Numbered from the stretch's first letter, positions 1 through 8,065 are shown. The stretch: 64,000 nucleotides of DNA from Armatimonadota bacterium (GCA_026392115.1 JAPLCQ010000086.1:1-64000); one strand, 5' to 3'. The notes: generated from the letters alone by a model not told the origin. Numbers and translations are program-made.

Positions 1-73
1 CAGCGGCGAAGCGCTCCAGCCGCTCCCGCCACGCAGTCTCCACCAGAGCCCTGCTCGCCATGTCAACCTCCAT
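1..73 (-). CDS. Possible partial gene at left edge, product unknown
   Basis: A reading frame opens on the minus strand with two in-frame ATGs (complement of 71-73 and 59-61) and stays open to the window edge. It encodes MEVDMASRALVETAWRER and a few more residues. GGAGG lies 5 nt before the second ATG, which favours that start. It is about 190 nt downstream of the nucleotidyltransferase gene on the same strand, so it could be a fourth gene of that cassette. Too little is present to name a family, and it may not be a gene. Confidence 0.35.
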   Translation of the reverse strand, partial: MEVDMASRALVETAWRERLERFAA

Positions 74-259
74 GCAAGTGATGGAGGCATTATCCGGATC
101 CGAGACGGCGAAGGGAACGTGGGGATGGTTTGACGCTTACGGTCCACGTGCTCGATTGGTCGGCAGATCTGGACGACCAGGTCCCAATGCCGTGACACGT
201 CGGGCGTCCCGCCGTCGAGTAGCATCCGTGTCTCGCGTGTGCGCCTATCACCGATGTTG

Positions 260-1300
260 CTAGGTAGGTGCCACAGGCGGACTGGTCTTCTGAAGCAACG
301 ACAAGACGAGTTCACCCGGCGCGGCGACAGAGTATCCTGCCTCCGCGGCGAACCTGCCCACATTCTTGTCAAAGGTGGGCTCCGCTGCGAACGTCTCGAA
401 GTCGACAAGGCTGGCGTTCACCAGTTGGGACTCGCGCCTCAGCTTGGCGATGCCCGAGAGGACCGCGGCTGGGTCGACGGCTTGAACGAGCGCTAAGTAG
501 ATATCAAACGCGTCGCGAGGTCGCTTTGGGCGTTTCGCGCACTCGCACTTCGTCACCACGACTCCAACCTCGTCGATAAGGGGCACCTGCAGCGTGAGTT
601 GGCTTCCGCCTGCGGGTAACGTGCCCGTCACGCATTCCTGCACGATGTGGCCGCGGAACACGAAGGCTGACTCTGGCAGCGCAATCGACTTCACGATCAG
701 CGTGGCCTCCCGCTCAGCACATTCGCGCACGTGCAGGTCGAGGTGGTCTACCATTAAGTCCAGGTCTGCTTTGCCTTCAAGTGGGTGCAGGAGATCGATG
801 TTGAACATCAACCGCTCGTTGCCCACAGCGAGAGCCCTCAGTAGCTGAAAGGGGTGCTTTGCAGACGCCGTGTATCCTTCGGCCAAGAATGCCGACACTA
901 CACGGTCAAGCTCGGCCCGGCTCGTGGCCTCTTGGAACAGGAGATCAACGTCCTTCGTGCCAGGATGTGGTATCGGCGCACAGTTTCGTAGGTAGGGCGA
1001 CCAGCCACCCACTACGCAGTACTGGCTGTCTTGCCCAGAGGCGATCCTCACTGCATCAAGTAGTAGTCCTTGGGCTGCGTCTTGAATGGTGCCATAAGCG
1101 TGATGTGCCAACCGAGTTGCCTCCCCGCACCATGACCAACTGCACCGGACAAGCGCCGATCCGTTGGCGAACGTCAGATCACCATCCATAATGGTGCCGC
1201 ACGTAAACCCACGCCCAGGAACTGTAGCTCCTCCCTGTCGTGGATGCAGACAGACCCTTCCCGCAACTCTGCGCTGTCCGTGTGCGCCAGCACCAGCCAT
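260..1300 (-). CDS. Nucleotidyltransferase-fold protein (AbiEii/MNT-like)
   Basis: 346 residues. The NTase signature is visible: VVGGW at 96-100, TKDVDL at 115-120 with the acidic pair D117/D119, and a third candidate carboxylate D169 in NIDLL. This is the hGG...DhD layout of polymerase-beta-type nucleotidyltransferases, which include AbiEii and MNT antitoxins. The ATG at 1300 is 6 nt after the upstream HEPN stop, with GGAG 9 nt before it, so coupled translation is likely. An internal ATG at 1189 (MDGDLTF) is the alternative start; the first 37 residues are low-complexity and could be untranslated. It is the third gene of a DUF262-HEPN-NTase run. In known MNT/HEPN pairs the NTase adds nucleotides to the HEPN toxin; that role here is an inference. 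Confidence 0.75.
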   Translation of the reverse strand: MAGAGAHGQRRVAGRVCLHPRQGGATVPGRGFTCGTIMDGDLTFANGSALVRCSWSWCGEATRLAHHAYGTIQDAAQGLLLDAVRIASGQDSQYCVVGGWSPYLRNCAPIPHPGTKDVDLLFQEATSRAELDRVVSAFLAEGYTASAKHPFQLLRALAVGNERLMFNIDLLHPLEGKADLDLMVDHLDLHVRECAEREATLIVKSIALPESAFVFRGHIVQECVTGTLPAGGSQLTLQVPLIDEVGVVVTKCECAKRPKRPRDAFDIYLALVQAVDPAAVLSGIAKLRRESQLVNASLVDFETFAAEPTFDKNVGRFAAEAGYSVAAPGELVLSLLQKTSPPVAPT

Positions 1301-1306
1301 TACATG

Positions 1307-2371
1307 CTACTCCATGCCGGCTGTCTCGTGGTCTACTTTCAGACGGAGCAGGTCCGCACTCCAGGTCACGCGCGGCTCCAGTTGCAGTCCTAACTCGGCC
1401 CCATCGCTGAGCGCAGCCAGTGTCACAGGCTCATCGTTCAGTTCTAGACTCATGACACGGACTGGTGTGCACCGGTTGCCACGACGGGCGATCAGATCGT
1501 CGCCGGTCGAGACCGTGCAGGAGCGCATCGATGCTACTACGGCGTCAGGATCCGGGTAATAGTGGTTAACACGACCGAGGACGGCCACGTTCCCGAGGTC
1601 CTCCATCCGCTCTACCGCAGCGCTGAAGAAGCAGTTTCCGAGCGCCTCGCAGAAGCAGATCAGGAAGTCGATGACCAACCCGAGTTGCGGACGGGAGAGT
1701 ACATTCGCAACGTCGCCGTGCGCTGCCTCATTGCGAAGCACCACAATCCCGTCAAGGTAGCTTTCAACCGTTTCAGAATTACCAAGGCGTTCAAGCATAA
1801 AATCAACCATACTAGGGTGTTCGGTTAGGACTAAGACGGGCTCCACGATGCCGACGTTCAGTAGCATGTCCGCTAGGGTCTGCATACGCAGGTTGTCATC
1901 GCTCGTCTTGAAGAACTCACGGCGTACATCGTAGCGACCGGCACGGTTAAGCCCACCCCACAGGCCACCAAGCACATCCTGGTCCGATAGGTGCACGTAC
2001 TTCCGCCACTGGCGCCGACCCAATATGTGCCCGACGCCTCTCATGTGAGAGTCCCTCGTCCTTGCTGGTAGGTCGGAGTAAGCCGGATACAGGTCGGGGA
2101 GCATCGCGAGCCACTCGTCCACATATGCTGCCACACAGTGCTCGTACATGGCATAGGCGCGCGTGATCGCGGAGCAGTGGTCGTAGACACGCCACGCTGC
2201 GGAGTCTGGTACCACGGTGCCCAGATGTGGTCCAACGACCGCGCCACCTGGGTCGGCGCCTTGGATAGAACAGTGCTCAGCCACGCTGCTGCGCACCAGC
2301 TCGGCAAACGCGAGGTACTTACGCATGCAATCGGCTTGCTCGACCAGTGCCGCACAGGGGGATAGGAACAC
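1307..2371 (-). CDS. HEPN-domain protein (RiboL-PSP/MAE_28990-like)
   Basis: 354 residues. Helical, with an RNEAAH motif at 213-218, which is the RX4H active-site pattern of HEPN ribonucleases (R213, H218). Before it is a helical stretch (about 60-110) with YEHCVAAYVDEWLAM, reminiscent of the RiboL-PSP-type HEPN families. There is no signal peptide or membrane segment. It starts 6 nt after the DUF262 gene stops and ends 6 nt before the NTase gene begins, so the three are surely cotranscribed. HEPN proteins often act as RNases in toxin-antitoxin and abortive-infection systems. The family assignment rests on the motif and helical pattern; its RNA target, if any, is unknown. Confidence 0.65.
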   Translation of the reverse strand: MFLSPCAALVEQADCMRKYLAFAELVRSSVAEHCSIQGADPGGAVVGPHLGTVVPDSAAWRVYDHCSAITRAYAMYEHCVAAYVDEWLAMLPDLYPAYSDLPARTRDSHMRGVGHILGRRQWRKYVHLSDQDVLGGLWGGLNRAGRYDVRREFFKTSDDNLRMQTLADMLLNVGIVEPVLVLTEHPSMVDFMLERLGNSETVESYLDGIVVLRNEAAHGDVANVLSRPQLGLVIDFLICFCEALGNCFFSAAVERMEDLGNVAVLGRVNHYYPDPDAVVASMRSCTVSTGDDLIARRGNRCTPVRVMSLELNDEPVTLAALSDGAELGLQLEPRVTWSADLLRLKVDHETAGME

Positions 2372-2377
2372 AGGCAG

Positions 2378-3625
2378 CTACTCGGCCAACACTTCATCAA
2401 GCATTGATGTGAAGAGCTTGATACGGGTCTCAACATCCGCCTTGGTGTTACCGCGGCCAGTAAAGGTGCCCGGTTCATTCACCTCGAACATAGCGCGCGT
2501 TGCCTCCACCACACGCGCCTGCCGGCCAACTAGGACCTCGGCGTCGTCCAACCGGTCGGCAAGGCCAACAAGGACCGCGTCTCCGAATGCCTTGTGAGGA
2601 TGCTGCTCCCATAGGCCACGACCGGCGTTCCATGGCCTGAAGAGCCTGTCGCCGTATATGCGCGCGCCGAGCGTAACCGTCCGAGCGAAAACCGACCGCA
2701 ACAAAGCGAGGTCTTCACCCGAGAAGGAACGTGAACGAGCCATGTACAGGTCCAGAAAGCCCTGCATGCCGCGCTGGTACCTTGCAGCGTGCCGCAGCGC
2801 AAAAAACCTCAGCACCACCTCGGCATCTTCCATCTGGGCCCAGAACCGGTTTTCGACGAGGCTCTGGGGGGGCGGGTCACCATGCTCAGGCGACCACTCC
2901 TCCAGATCCCATGCCGCCCGAAACGGCGGGAGTCGCGCGAGTTCGAGTAGCAGATCATTGAAGGGCCCCTGGTAGAGGCAGTTGCGGACCTCCTGCTTGC
3001 CAAGAAGAACACCACCTGTGTTGAGCCGCTCAAACACCAATTGCTTCAGCAGCATGGCCTCCTCGTCGGAAGCCGCAGATTCAGTAAGGACTACGGTATA
3101 TGATATCGACCGGCGATCAAGAGCCGCCCTGATCCGAGCCGGCAGCCTGGCATATGTCCTTCCGTTTAGTTCGGGCCATCGCTCGAGATCAGCAAGGACC
3201 AGTTCGTTGTTATAGAATGCCTGCACTGCCGATACGCGCTGCTGGCCGTCCATCACCTCGTATGTCGCGAAGTCCGTCTCATAAACGAACAGTGGGGGCA
3301 CCGGGATATTCATAATGAACGACTCGATCAAGCGCGACTGCCTAGTTGCGTCCCACCTTGGCCGGCGCTGGTAGTTGGGCCGGCAGTTCATGTAGCCAGT
3401 GCGCTTCAGTGCCGCGACAAAGTTCGGAAGTTGCTCTCGGTTTGACTCCGTAACGATGCGTTCAGCCTTGCGCCCGTATTTGTCGGCGATCTCCGCGTCG
3501 GTCAGCCGATGCGGCACGGCCAAGGGCGGTTTGCCCCACATCTGCTCCTCGCCAAGCGCGAATTGCTGCACAGTAGTCCTCCCAGTTCGGCCCCGGTGCG
3601 CAGCGCCAGATCCACTCCGCTCCAT
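2378..3625 (-). CDS. DUF262 (GmrSD N-terminal/ParB-like) protein
   Basis: 415 residues. DUF262 hallmarks: PNYQRRPRWD at 83-92 and DGQQR at 126-130, followed by a helical C-terminal half with no DUF1524 HNH domain. DUF262 is the ParB/Srx-like domain that in GmrS/BrxU-type restriction enzymes binds nucleotide and drives cleavage of modified DNA. The ATG at 3625 has no clear Shine-Dalgarno but follows an AT-rich stretch. A second in-frame ATG at 3541 (MWGKPPLAV) has GAGGAG close by and could be the true start. First gene of the cassette; the gene and its two partners are visibly less GC-rich than the glycosidase genes to the right, suggesting transfer. Confidence 0.8.
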   Translation of the reverse strand: MERSGSGAAHRGRTGRTTVQQFALGEEQMWGKPPLAVPHRLTDAEIADKYGRKAERIVTESNREQLPNFVAALKRTGYMNCRPNYQRRPRWDATRQSRLIESFIMNIPVPPLFVYETDFATYEVMDGQQRVSAVQAFYNNELVLADLERWPELNGRTYARLPARIRAALDRRSISYTVVLTESAASDEEAMLLKQLVFERLNTGGVLLGKQEVRNCLYQGPFNDLLLELARLPPFRAAWDLEEWSPEHGDPPPQSLVENRFWAQMEDAEVVLRFFALRHAARYQRGMQGFLDLYMARSRSFSGEDLALLRSVFARTVTLGARIYGDRLFRPWNAGRGLWEQHPHKAFGDAVLVGLADRLDDAEVLVGRQARVVEATRAMFEVNEPGTFTGRGNTKADVETRIKLFTSMLDEVLAE

Positions 3626-4066: not shown

Positions 4067-6142
4067 CTACTCGCCCACCACGCCCACTTCCACCAACCGC
4101 AGCCCGCGCTTCGACTCGTTCCGCCCGAAGTCGAACCGCACGTGCGAGGCCTGCACCGGCGCGAACCGGACGCGGCTCCGCGAGGTAACGCCCGCGCCAG
4201 GCAGGACGGCAACCTGCCTGAACGTGACGCCGTCGGCGGAGACCGACACCGTCGCCCGGTCCGGGATGCGGGAGGGCGGGATCTGCTGCCCGTCGCCCTC
4301 GAAGTAGTCCACGAAGACGCCGCGGACCTGCCTGGGCGACTTGAGGGCGATGGTGACCGACTCCTCTTGCTCGGCATCGGCGAACGTGACGCCGTCGTTG
4401 AAGGAGCCGTCGATCAGGTTCGTGAGCTTGTTGGGTCGGTCCGACAGCACGTCGTTCCTGGGCGCGAGCGCCGACGGCGAGGCGACCTCCGCGCCCTCAA
4501 ACCAGAACGACACGCAGTCGGTCTTCTCTTCGACGCGCCGGAACACGTCCAGCAGCTTCGGCCCTTCGGGCAGGGCGGCCAGCCGCGCGAAGAATTCGCC
4601 CCTGGCCGGCTTGCGCGGGTGTTCACGGCCGTTCTCATCGAGGAAGGAGGCGTGCGGTGTGAGAACTCGGTCGCCCATCCGCTCAAGCAGGCGGATGGCC
4701 CTGATCGGCAGCGTCCGCTCGATGACGAAGAGGCGAGCGGAGGCGGGCAGCTTCGCAAGCTCATCGGTAAGGACCAGTTCCAGGTCGCCGGGCGGCATCC
4801 GGTCGCAGATGCGCAGGAAGGCGTCGATGTGGTTCACGGCCGACACCGTGTAGTGGAGCGTCTCCTCCGGGAAGTAGACGCGGACCTTCCCCGGCCTGTA
4901 CCTTGCGTAGCGGCTTGGGTCGGCCCCATAGGCGCCGCCAAGCTCCTTCCATGCCTGCCCGTTCGCCGTCCGCCGCTCGCCGCTCGCCGCGATAAGCCCC
5001 CAGACCTCCTCACGGCCGCACCAGGCCATGGCGCCCGCCGATGGGCCGCCCACATCCGCAACCAGCTTGAAGGCGCGGGGCTTGACGCCGGGGACCTCCG
5101 CGATGAAGAGCCGCGAGCCGGCCGCCGCCGCGAACTTGGAGAGGGTGCGGTACTGCGGGTAGTACTCCAGCGTGTCGCTGTAAAGGTCGGCCGAAAGGAA
5201 GCCGCCGGTCACGGCCGCCGTGCGCATGCTGGGGCCACAGGCGGGCACGGTAGAGGAGCGGATGTCGGCCAGCGCTCCCAGCGGGTTGAGCAGGCAGCCG
5301 CCGGCCCAAACCGCTCCCGGCGCCCTGCGGTGGATCGAGTCGCGCAGGCCAGCCAGCACGTCGCGCTGCATCAGGTCCATGGCCCTTCGCAGGTCGAAGG
5401 TGCGGCGGCTGTTCACGGCGGAGGGCTCCACGGAGCGGCCGTCTGCAGTCATGATGCGCGGCGTCTCGACCTGCTCGAAGCCCGAATACGACGTGCCCCA
5501 CTCGCGGTTGAGCGCACCGATCCTGCCGCCGTACATGCCGGCCAGCTTCCGCCTGAACGCCGCAGGGAAGCGGACGCTCTTCTCGTGCTTGTACGTGTTC
5601 CACCACCAGCTCTCGTACCAGCCGTAGACGATCTGGGCGCCGTACTTCTCGGTCAGGTGGTCGACCACCAGCATGGTGAACCAGACCGTGGGATCTGCGT
5701 TCTCGGGCACGTGGAGCGACATCCATGCCTTGGTGGTCAAGTCGCCGCGGACCTCCGGCGAGGGGCAGACGTTAGGCGTGAAGCCGTGCTTAACCATCCA
5801 GTCCATGACGGCGTCGAGGCTCCGCCAGTCGGGCGCGGCCAGGTCACCGGGGTCTAAGCGGCCATCGGGCCGCCACGTGAGGAGCCGCTTCTCGTCTATG
5901 CCCACCTCGCTGGGGTAGAGCGGGAAGCGGACAGCGTTGCATCCCAGCGACTTCAGGTATCCCGCATCGTCGTCGGTCAGCGGCCAGTAGCGCGCCAGCA
6001 GCTCCGGCGGCCCGACGTTGTACTGGTTCACGCCGAAGAGGATGCGGGGGATGGGCGGCAGTCCTGGGCGGGACGACGCGGCGGCGTCGCCGCTCAGCAT
6101 CAGGGCGCAGAGCGCCGGCAAGATGGCAAGAGGTGGTCTCAT
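4067..6142 (-). CDS. Secreted GH42-like glycoside hydrolase with C-terminal discoidin-like domain
   Basis: 691 residues from the ATG at 6142 (MRPPLAIL...), chosen because it begins a signal peptide ending near AAASS; the frame extends upstream without signal character. An (alpha/beta)8-type region follows (ILFGVNQYNVGP, NAVRFPLYPSEVG, IVYGWYESWWWN), resembling GH42/GH5-like beta-glycosidases; E in YES is a candidate acid/base. The last 150 residues (VSADGVTF...HVRFDFG...GLRLVEVGV) look like an F5/8-type carbohydrate-binding domain. Its first 97 codons are duplicated at 7773-8065. Family and substrate are inferred from motif patterns only. Confidence 0.7.
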   Translation of the reverse strand: MRPPLAILPALCALMLSGDAAASSRPGLPPIPRILFGVNQYNVGPPELLARYWPLTDDDAGYLKSLGCNAVRFPLYPSEVGIDEKRLLTWRPDGRLDPGDLAAPDWRSLDAVMDWMVKHGFTPNVCPSPEVRGDLTTKAWMSLHVPENADPTVWFTMLVVDHLTEKYGAQIVYGWYESWWWNTYKHEKSVRFPAAFRRKLAGMYGGRIGALNREWGTSYSGFEQVETPRIMTADGRSVEPSAVNSRRTFDLRRAMDLMQRDVLAGLRDSIHRRAPGAVWAGGCLLNPLGALADIRSSTVPACGPSMRTAAVTGGFLSADLYSDTLEYYPQYRTLSKFAAAAGSRLFIAEVPGVKPRAFKLVADVGGPSAGAMAWCGREEVWGLIAASGERRTANGQAWKELGGAYGADPSRYARYRPGKVRVYFPEETLHYTVSAVNHIDAFLRICDRMPPGDLELVLTDELAKLPASARLFVIERTLPIRAIRLLERMGDRVLTPHASFLDENGREHPRKPARGEFFARLAALPEGPKLLDVFRRVEEKTDCVSFWFEGAEVASPSALAPRNDVLSDRPNKLTNLIDGSFNDGVTFADAEQEESVTIALKSPRQVRGVFVDYFEGDGQQIPPSRIPDRATVSVSADGVTFRQVAVLPGAGVTSRSRVRFAPVQASHVRFDFGRNESKRGLRLVEVGVVGE
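5841..6142. repeat. Direct duplication, copy A (5' end of GH42-like gene)
   Basis: The 293 bp from 5850 to 6142 match 7773-8065 without indels. About a dozen mismatches are visible across the first 270 bp, with more in the signal-peptide codons. Both copies end exactly at the start codon; sequence upstream of the ATGs is unrelated. This copy belongs to the intact gene. Confidence 0.85.
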
Positions 6143-6365
6143 GCTGGTACGATACCCTGCAAGGCGTGGCAGCACTGGACGGAGAGCCCGACGCGCGCGA
6201 TTCGGCACCACGGAGCGCTGCAGCCCTATGCCTGGGAGGCGACGCCCGTGAACCAACGGCCCATCGCCAGCCTAGTGGCGGCCGCGTTGCCATCACCGGT
6301 CCCGCTGTGCGGGCCCCGGCGTCCGACCGGCCGCTCATGCGGGCGTGCCGATCGCGTCCAACGGA

Positions 6366-6696: not shown

Positions 6697-7620
6697 TCAC
6701 TCCCGTTCGGGATCACGACGCTGCTCGCGCTGCTTTCGGGCCGCATCGACAGCTCGACCACTCATGTCCTTGTCGGCACCAAGGTTGGTGCTGAACTTAA
6801 CCTTGGGCTTCCATCGCCTGTATCTGTTCCACTGATCAGGCCGTATCAGGGCCAGCACCTGACGTGACGCCATATTGGCCTGAATCACTGTGCCGGTCTG
6901 GCAATCGTACGTGGAAACGACGGTGATCACCTCCTCGCCTGGCCTTATGGTCGCACTGATGGCTTCGGCGTAACGGAATGCACCTTTGGCGGTAACCACT
7001 GTGTGGAGTATCTCACCTACTGTCTTCCAGGGCACGTTGAGAGTGCTAGTGAACGCGCCGTACCCGCTGTGCAGCCATCCGATGCGATGCCCCATCCTGA
7101 CTCCCGTAGCCCTGTTCTTGAACGCTGGGTCTAGCACCTTGGTGCGGAACTCCCGAAACTGCGGCTCCTCCTCGCAGGAGCCACACACAGCGTAATCACC
7201 ACGTGGTACCCGATTAACAGTGGTCTGTAAGCCTCGGTAGCTCACGCGCAGGAGGATATTGCACTTTGAGAAGGCTGGCCAAGCCGCACCTACCAGGAAA
7301 TCTGCAGTCGTGTCCTTCAGTAGCCGGTTGCGCCTAAACGCTCTCTCGATCCGGTAGTTAGAGCGCTTGGCGCGATCAGCGGTTAGGACACCACCACGCA
7401 GGCACCGCAACAACTGGGGACGAATTGCGATGAGCCAGTTGATTACTGGCTCCATGTTGCCCGCAAATGCCACGGCAAGATGCGGGCTGTACGCATACAA
7501 CTTGAACATCTCATCCTGTACGCCTTCACAGGTGCTATCTGGTAACCACCATGAGACACGCGCATCGGCACCGAGTAAAATGTCGCCGCGGTTATCAATG
7601 AAGCCAACGATGCAAGTCAT
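6697..7620 (-). CDS. Ntn-hydrolase superfamily (proteasome-beta/HslV-like) protein
   Basis: 307 residues. The ATG at 7620 has a perfect AGGAGG (complement of 7631-7636) 10 nt upstream, which decides the start over the longer frame. The N-terminus MTCIVGFIDNRGDILLGADAR has Thr directly after Met and the strand-turn-GAD pattern of proteasome-beta/HslV-type Ntn hydrolases, in which Thr becomes the nucleophile once Met is removed. It is longer than HslV (about 175 residues), has a basic C-terminus (RKQREQRRDPERE), and has no HslU or proteasome partner nearby. Codon use is less GC-rich than its neighbours. It stands between a dead glycosidase fragment and the truncated GH42 copy, suggesting a transferred gene. 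Activity and target are unknown. Confidence 0.65.
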   Translation of the reverse strand: MTCIVGFIDNRGDILLGADARVSWWLPDSTCEGVQDEMFKLYAYSPHLAVAFAGNMEPVINWLIAIRPQLLRCLRGGVLTADRAKRSNYRIERAFRRNRLLKDTTADFLVGAAWPAFSKCNILLRVSYRGLQTTVNRVPRGDYAVCGSCEEEPQFREFRTKVLDPAFKNRATGVRMGHRIGWLHSGYGAFTSTLNVPWKTVGEILHTVVTAKGAFRYAEAISATIRPGEEVITVVSTYDCQTGTVIQANMASRQVLALIRPDQWNRYRRWKPKVKFSTNLGADKDMSGRAVDAARKQREQRRDPERE

Positions 7621-7621
7621 G

Positions 7622-8065
7622 TTATGAAGTCCTCCTAATATGCGCGTCGAGCGCAAGAGACACGCCGGTCGCGGGCTGCCGAAGCCAGGACTGGCTGTGC
7701 CACAGGTGGCTGGGCAGTTGGCAGCCGGCTTGGCTCCGCGAGCGGCACCTGTCCGGCTTAGCCAGTCCGCCGGGGTCGAAGCGGCCATCGGGCTGCCACG
7801 TGAGGAGCCGCTTCTCGTCGATGCCCACCTCGCTGGGGTAGAGCGGGAAGCGGACGGCGTTGCATCCCAGCGACTTCAGGTATCCCGCGTCGTCGTCGGT
7901 GAGCGGCCAGTAGCGCGCCAGCAGCTCCGGCGGCCCGACGTTGTACTGGTTCACGCCGAAGAGGATGCGTGGAATGGTCGGCAGTGCGGGGCGGGACGAC
8001 GCGGCGGCGTGGCCGCTCAGCATCAGGGCGCAGAGCGCCGGCAGCACGGCCAGTGGGCCGGCCAT
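7622..8065 (-). pseudogene. Truncated duplicate of the GH42-like gene (N-terminal 97 codons)
   Basis: From ATG 8065 the frame encodes a signal peptide (MAGPLAVLPALCALM...) and the same ILFGVNQYNVGP and RFPLYPSEVG segments as the intact gene at 4067-6142. It then departs after LDPGG-like residues and ends in unrelated sequence. An in-frame ATG at 8125 lies 5 nt after the stop of the pectate-lyase-like gene, so the fragment occupies the third position of that operon. The AGGAGG that drives the Ntn-hydrolase gene lies in its last codons. No catalytic residues are left, so it is a relic. Confidence 0.75.

Follow-up and report, generated by a model that had tools for sequence, protein, structure and literature searches.

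A DUF262–HEPN gene pair with a predicted translation-factor-like barrel, next to an AbiEii/MenT-like nucleotidyltransferase gene, in an Armatimonadota genome

Three adjacent genes, located at one end of a 64,000-nucleotide stretch of DNA from an Armatimonadota bacterium (GCA_026392115.1, JAPLCQ010000086.1:1-64000; this whole stretch is referred to as the window), encode a DUF262 protein, a HEPN protein and a nucleotidyltransferase (NTase). Their arrangement raises the question of whether the three genes represent one conserved system, as proposed in the preliminary description, or whether the functional unit is smaller.

The locus and its genomic surroundings

The positions of the three genes, their motifs, their short spacing and their location in a locally low-GC insert, all noted in the preliminary description, were confirmed (Table 1). 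All three open reading frames (ORFs) are intact, and the gaps between DUF262 and HEPN and between HEPN and NTase amount to 6 nt each when the longest plausible starts are used. A consensus promoter above chance was not found at the locus.

Table 1. Features at the DUF262–HEPN–NTase locus (window coordinates).
Feature	Coordinates	Strand	Remarks
DUF262 (GmrSD_N, ParB/Srx-like) protein	2378..3625	-	415 aa; Pfam PF03235 5e-20
HEPN (RiboL-PSP type), predicted RNase	1307..2371	-	354 aa; Pfam PF18735 5e-9
Predicted C-terminal beta-barrel of HEPN, residues ~261-345	1337..1590	-	AlphaFold strands 262-344, Foldseek
NTase ORF, AbiEii/MenT-like	260..1300	-	346 aa; core from ~residue 68; weak PF08843
IS66-family element end	1..140	.	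at contig end; tnpA start reads on minus strand

The GC content of the three-gene stretch ranges between 0.57 and 0.63, compared with about 0.66-0.73 further along the window, and the GC3 values of the three genes (0.66-0.70) differ from that of the next upstream gene (0.89). The DUF262–HEPN module was probably acquired as a low-GC insert. Low GC is not limited to the cassette, because a second low-GC gene, the ORF at 6697-7788 with neither a Pfam nor a PADLOC match, was also observed. This ORF is located between the two copies of a 300-nt repeat (92% identity, window 5825-6124 and 7748-8047), by which the start of a 729-aa gene (4067-6256) is present a second time in truncated form. Moreover, a second DUF262 protein is encoded on the same contig at 35871-37865 on the plus strand; this protein carries a DUF1524 nuclease domain (GmrSD_N 2e-36, GmrSD_C 1e-20, PADLOC HEC-06 3e-186) and represents a single-chain GmrSD-like enzyme.

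Sequences matching the IS66 end at 96-100% occur at seven places in the genome, this one included, and the copy in contig C47 carries an IS66 TnpB (PF05717, 2e-39). Between the IS66 end and the NTase stop codon, a short remnant resembles the start of a URO-D-family gene that is present in contig C47. Together with the contig ending there, these remains just downstream of the genes would suit an inactive or broken defence insert, i.e., cargo decaying beside the IS66 element; this explanation is improbable, with three intact ORFs and invariant catalytic residues arguing against it.

Conservation of the pair and standing of the NTase

A contig scan with a four-sequence DUF262 alignment retained 80 relatives, whose record titles place them in at least nine phyla (Acidobacteriota, Pseudomonadota, Bacteroidota, Desulfobacterota, Cyanobacteriota, Armatimonadota, Actinomycetota, Bacillota and a candidate phylum (Uhrbacteria)), the closest 26 of them featuring 49-60% DUF262 identity. 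A HEPN gene was found directly 3' of the DUF262 gene in 73 of the 80 loci, usually at a spacing of -8 to +18 nt, and several of the seven loci without a downstream HEPN gene are situated at contig ends or are gapped. One weak HEPN match (genome G027, locus L052) looks like chance and was rejected, its ORF being unalignable as HEPN and devoid of RX4H. For DUF262 relatives on viral contigs, a HEPN partner was detected in 25 out of 52 cases, mostly among the closest relatives. DUF262 and HEPN distances correlated in 32 pairs (Mantel r 0.86, reached in 0 of 2000 permutations), partly reflecting shared descent.

At least 1.2 kb of downstream sequence was available for 63 of the 73 pairs and at least 3 kb for 53; an NTase of the window type was found downstream in none of either set, and the genes 3' of the pair vary among loci. 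No NTase match was obtained anywhere in 27 pair-carrying genomes (25 belonging to the closest clade), a search without a positive control of its own, the query of which does find relatives elsewhere. A few distant AbiEii relatives, none of them near a pair, were detected in Armatimonadota, Acidobacteriota and Cyanobacteriota genomes, and no NTase of the window type was found in phage and viral collections. Since the NTase profile has a limited reach and missed AbiEii genes of other subfamilies in three loci (L080, L087 and L111), where they were seen by motif or Pfam, these negative results apply to NTases of this type.

NTases residing near other pairs belong to other toxin-antitoxin pairs. 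In a Bryobacteraceae genome (L063:5123-7200), a true MNT-HepT pair is located directly upstream of the DUF262–HEPN pair; in L080, an AbiEii gene with its own helix-turn-helix gene follows about 1 kb downstream, and AbiEii-like motifs occur near the pair in L087 and L111. These cases fit the gathering of defence and toxin-antitoxin genes in islands. Further defence neighbours of the pair comprise AbiE, GajB, a reverse transcriptase, NaeI and type I specificity genes, recorded as individual observations rather than as an enrichment. In a P2-like Vibrio phage, the pair lies next to the repressor (L193:5010-7282), and the record annotates its second gene as RiboL-PSP-HEPN. Two plasmids carry the pair as well: in Shewanella it follows an integron integrase, and in a conjugative plasmid of Nostoc the HEPN gene is split by a stop codon.

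A conserved three-gene system was thus not borne out. Missing co-occurrence in other genomes, named in the preliminary description as evidence that would speak against its proposal, was found for the NTase only, DUF262 and HEPN being recurrent companions; that no described system with this trio had come to mind is explained by the trio not being a recurring system. The functional unit is probably a two-gene DUF262–HEPN module, next to which the NTase is an independent neighbour in this genome only.

The NTase itself carries the motif GGW...GTKDVD at residues 98-119, so that its identity as a nucleotidyltransferase with GG...DVD holds, whereas its proposed membership of the MNT kind does not. 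Its match to PF08843 (AbiEii; 0.006) remained below the cut-off (17 bits vs a gathering threshold of 22.5). The predicted structure, computed from an alignment of the window plus genome loci only, reached a mean pLDDT of 65 overall, with a modelled core at approximately residues 68-340. The first ~67 residues of the ORF have very low model confidence and no counterpart in homologues, and the true start may therefore be further in, making the second 6-nt gap uncertain. TglT/MenT3 (Rv1045) of M. tuberculosis was the best Foldseek match of the core (E 1e-3), followed by lincosamide and aminoglycoside NTases, and residues T115, D117, K251 and D263 correspond by motif to S78, D80, K189 and D211 of MenT3 (PMC10435456). 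The NTase accordingly shares its catalytic residues with the enzymes of AbiE (type IV toxin-antitoxin) and MenAT systems and belongs to the AbiEii/MenT type rather than to the minimal MNTs. In contrast to its homologues elsewhere, which adjoin AbiEi-type genes, it has no AbiEi or MenA antitoxin gene beside it: its neighbours are the HEPN gene and, on the other side, the IS66 element and the contig end.

Two alternatives assign the NTase a role in the locus. According to the first, a HEPN toxin and an AMPylating NTase antitoxin form an MNT/HepT-type pair, with an unrelated DUF262 gene upstream. HEPN does adjoin an NTase here, and both motifs are intact, but the conserved partner of HEPN is DUF262, and the proteins belong to other families: the HEPN protein to PF18735 rather than PF01934/PF08780, and the NTase, a 346-aa ORF with GG(x17)DxD, to AbiEii-like enzymes rather than to the minimal NTases of fewer than 150 aa with GSX10DXD. 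HepT/MntA depends on RX4HXY and GSX10DXD (PMC7641770), whereas the window HEPN reads RNEAAHGD, and the tyrosine of RX4HXY is present in just one of 32 HEPN proteins. The gene order is reversed as well, MNT being located upstream of HEPN in HepT/MntA modules (PMC7641770) and, in true pairs, almost always keeping a fixed place with respect to HEPN (PMC3710099), and the window NTase is not conserved. On family, motif and tyrosine, this interpretation was rejected as highly improbable. Modification of the HEPN protein by the NTase, suggested in the preliminary description, is likewise not supported, as the HEPN protein lacks the tyrosine modified by MntA and the NTase is not a minimal MNT.

The second alternative is a lineage-specific three-gene system, in which the AbiEii/MenT-like NTase was recruited as third component and would either act on tRNA as a second effector or, as a regulator, modify HEPN or its RNA target. 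The common strand, the short spacing, an SD-like GGAG ahead of the start codon (ATG at 1300), the low GC3 shared with the pair and the intact active-site residues are in its favour. In addition, MenT toxins modify tRNA 3' ends (PMC10435456), and the predicted barrel of the HEPN protein (see below) resembles those of tRNA-handling translation factors. Nevertheless, the NTase accompanies no other pair, AbiEii homologues reside with AbiEi-type partners, the RX4HXY tyrosine is missing, and the unmodelled N-terminus renders translational coupling uncertain, so this alternative appears rather unlikely. Its more specific form, in which a DUF262-gated HEPN RNase directed to tRNA or the ribosome by its barrel has gained an AbiEii/MenT-type tRNA NTase as second translation-blocking effector, is a speculation to which we give little credence. 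The two-gene module with an independent NTase gene is preferred over these alternatives.

The DUF262 and HEPN proteins

The assignment of the first gene of the pair to DUF262 proved correct, with the Pfam match given in Table 1 and an intact DGQQR motif (residues 126-130, window 3250-3236), of which D126, G127, Q129 and R130 are invariant in all 32 aligned DUF262 homologues. According to Pfam, the protein matches by its N-terminal domain alone, and a DUF1524/HNH nuclease domain is absent from it. In GmrSD, BrxU and SspE, which share the DUF262 domain with the DGQQR NTP-binding motif, DUF262 binds or hydrolyses NTPs and controls a nuclease once modified DNA has been recognised (PMC10952713). 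These systems carry a DUF1524 nuclease in the same or a partner protein, whereas the presumed effector of the window pair is the HEPN RNase. Of the earlier reading as a modified-DNA sensor/nuclease, the sensor may stand at most, and the nuclease does not, given the missing DUF1524/HNH domain.

For the HEPN protein, the assignment was upheld by the PF18735 match, the RX4H motif (RNEAAH, residues 213-218, window 1735-1718) and a helical model. PF18735 matched 31 of the 32 aligned HEPN proteins, and none of the 32 deviates at R213 or H218; hence, the loss of RX4H in homologues, which the preliminary description would have taken as contrary evidence, was not observed. The AlphaFold model, based on an alignment of 32 sequences, reached a pLDDT of 90.8 and comprises an all-helical part (residues 4-258) followed by a beta-barrel (262-344). 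When the model was compared with the PDB by means of Foldseek, the best matches were barrel proteins or domains, namely Pbp11 of P. abyssi (1e-4), EF-Tu, eIF5B, IF2 and SelB, and the C-terminal domain of a U32 peptidase matched the barrel with a TM score of 0.81 (normalised by target length). The barrel is accordingly predicted to resemble translation-factor domain 2 and the U32 peptidase C-terminal domain. Sequence profiles gave weak matches in the same direction (GTP_EFTU_D4 5e-4 at best among members, eIF5B 0.006), and the hhalign comparison of the barrel with the EF-Tu-type domains of the genome itself was not significant.

Of the 73 HEPN partners, 60 reach the barrel region, whereas the remaining 13 do not possess it, are cut or match locally only. 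Downstream HEPN proteins without a barrel, or with a local profile match only, were recorded in L087, L089, L091, L092, L101, L114, L125 and L135. The occurrence of such partners beside DUF262 relatives suggests partner exchange between HEPN families. Judging from its predicted fold, the barrel may direct the HEPN protein to tRNA or ribosomes, a tentative proposal with somewhat less than even chances, as such barrels are likewise found in Pbp11 and U32 peptidases, the partners of which differ. A described RNA target of such HEPN proteins was not found in the open-access literature.

Known systems and a possible mode of action

The closest PADLOC model to the window DUF262 protein was NsnA (3e-57), which we take to be a component of Menshen (NsnA, NsnB, NsnC), followed by PD-T4-2_A (3e-34). 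In Menshen, DUF262 is paired with a predicted OLD nuclease (PMC10952713), whereas PADLOC gave no match to NsnB, NsnC or an OLD-type nuclease, or indeed to any other model, for the HEPN, the NTase or the 6697-7788 protein of the window. PD-T4-2 (Vassallo et al. 2022), which protects its native E. coli strain against T4 (PMC9519451), is recorded as DUF262 plus a PF18735 HEPN protein (PMC10952713), the same domains as those of the first and second gene of the pair. The window HEPN protein differs in its 354 aa with a predicted barrel and in not matching the PD-T4-2_B model (168 positions), which found no match in the 31 aligned homologues at E 0.1 either. Matches to PDLC04028 were not convincing in any of the seven genomes or records with pairs. 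Since the PD-T4-2_B model fails to match its HEPN protein, which in addition has the predicted barrel, the window pair was filed as a variant of the PD-T4-2 architecture, not as PD-T4-2 itself, and its role in defence is proposed by analogy.

HEPN proteins of the RiboL-PSP-HEPN family, to which that of the window belongs, were noted in operons with ParB-like genes in 2013 (Anantharaman 2013; PMC3710099); the table entry for this family in that publication gives a fusion to endoRNase L-PSP rather than a translation-factor-like barrel. A search of the open-access literature from 2019 on for DUF262, HEPN and phage matched the review PMC10952713 alone. The DUF262–HEPN pair as such is already described (PMC10952713, PMC3710099). 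Regarding the functions first attributed to the locus, the link of DUF262 and HEPN with defence finds backing in the PD-T4-2 architecture, whereas the MNT/HEPN toxin-antitoxin reading failed on families, motif and tyrosine.

By analogy with GmrSD, BrxU and SspE, the DUF262 protein is most likely an NTP-binding sensor or switch without a nuclease of its own. It would detect the DNA of an invading phage, which may be modified, or a change brought about by the phage and, once triggered, would release or activate the HEPN protein, a predicted metal-independent RNase (RX4H). The C-terminal barrel would direct this RNase to tRNA, ribosomes or translation complexes, and translation, and phage production with it, would come to a stop. 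The downstream NTase would have no part in these steps, being presumably an independent AbiEii/MenT-type gene beside the module. For the pair, sensing, activation, RNA target and defence function are all inferred.

The proposed three-gene system is thereby corrected to a widespread two-gene DUF262–HEPN module, the common form of which appears to join a DUF262 switch to a HEPN RNase bearing a predicted translation-factor-type barrel. Judged against the open-access literature, a barrel on a HEPN protein is a modest surprise, and it offers a concrete and testable guess at the RNA target of the HEPN protein, which may be tRNA or the ribosome.
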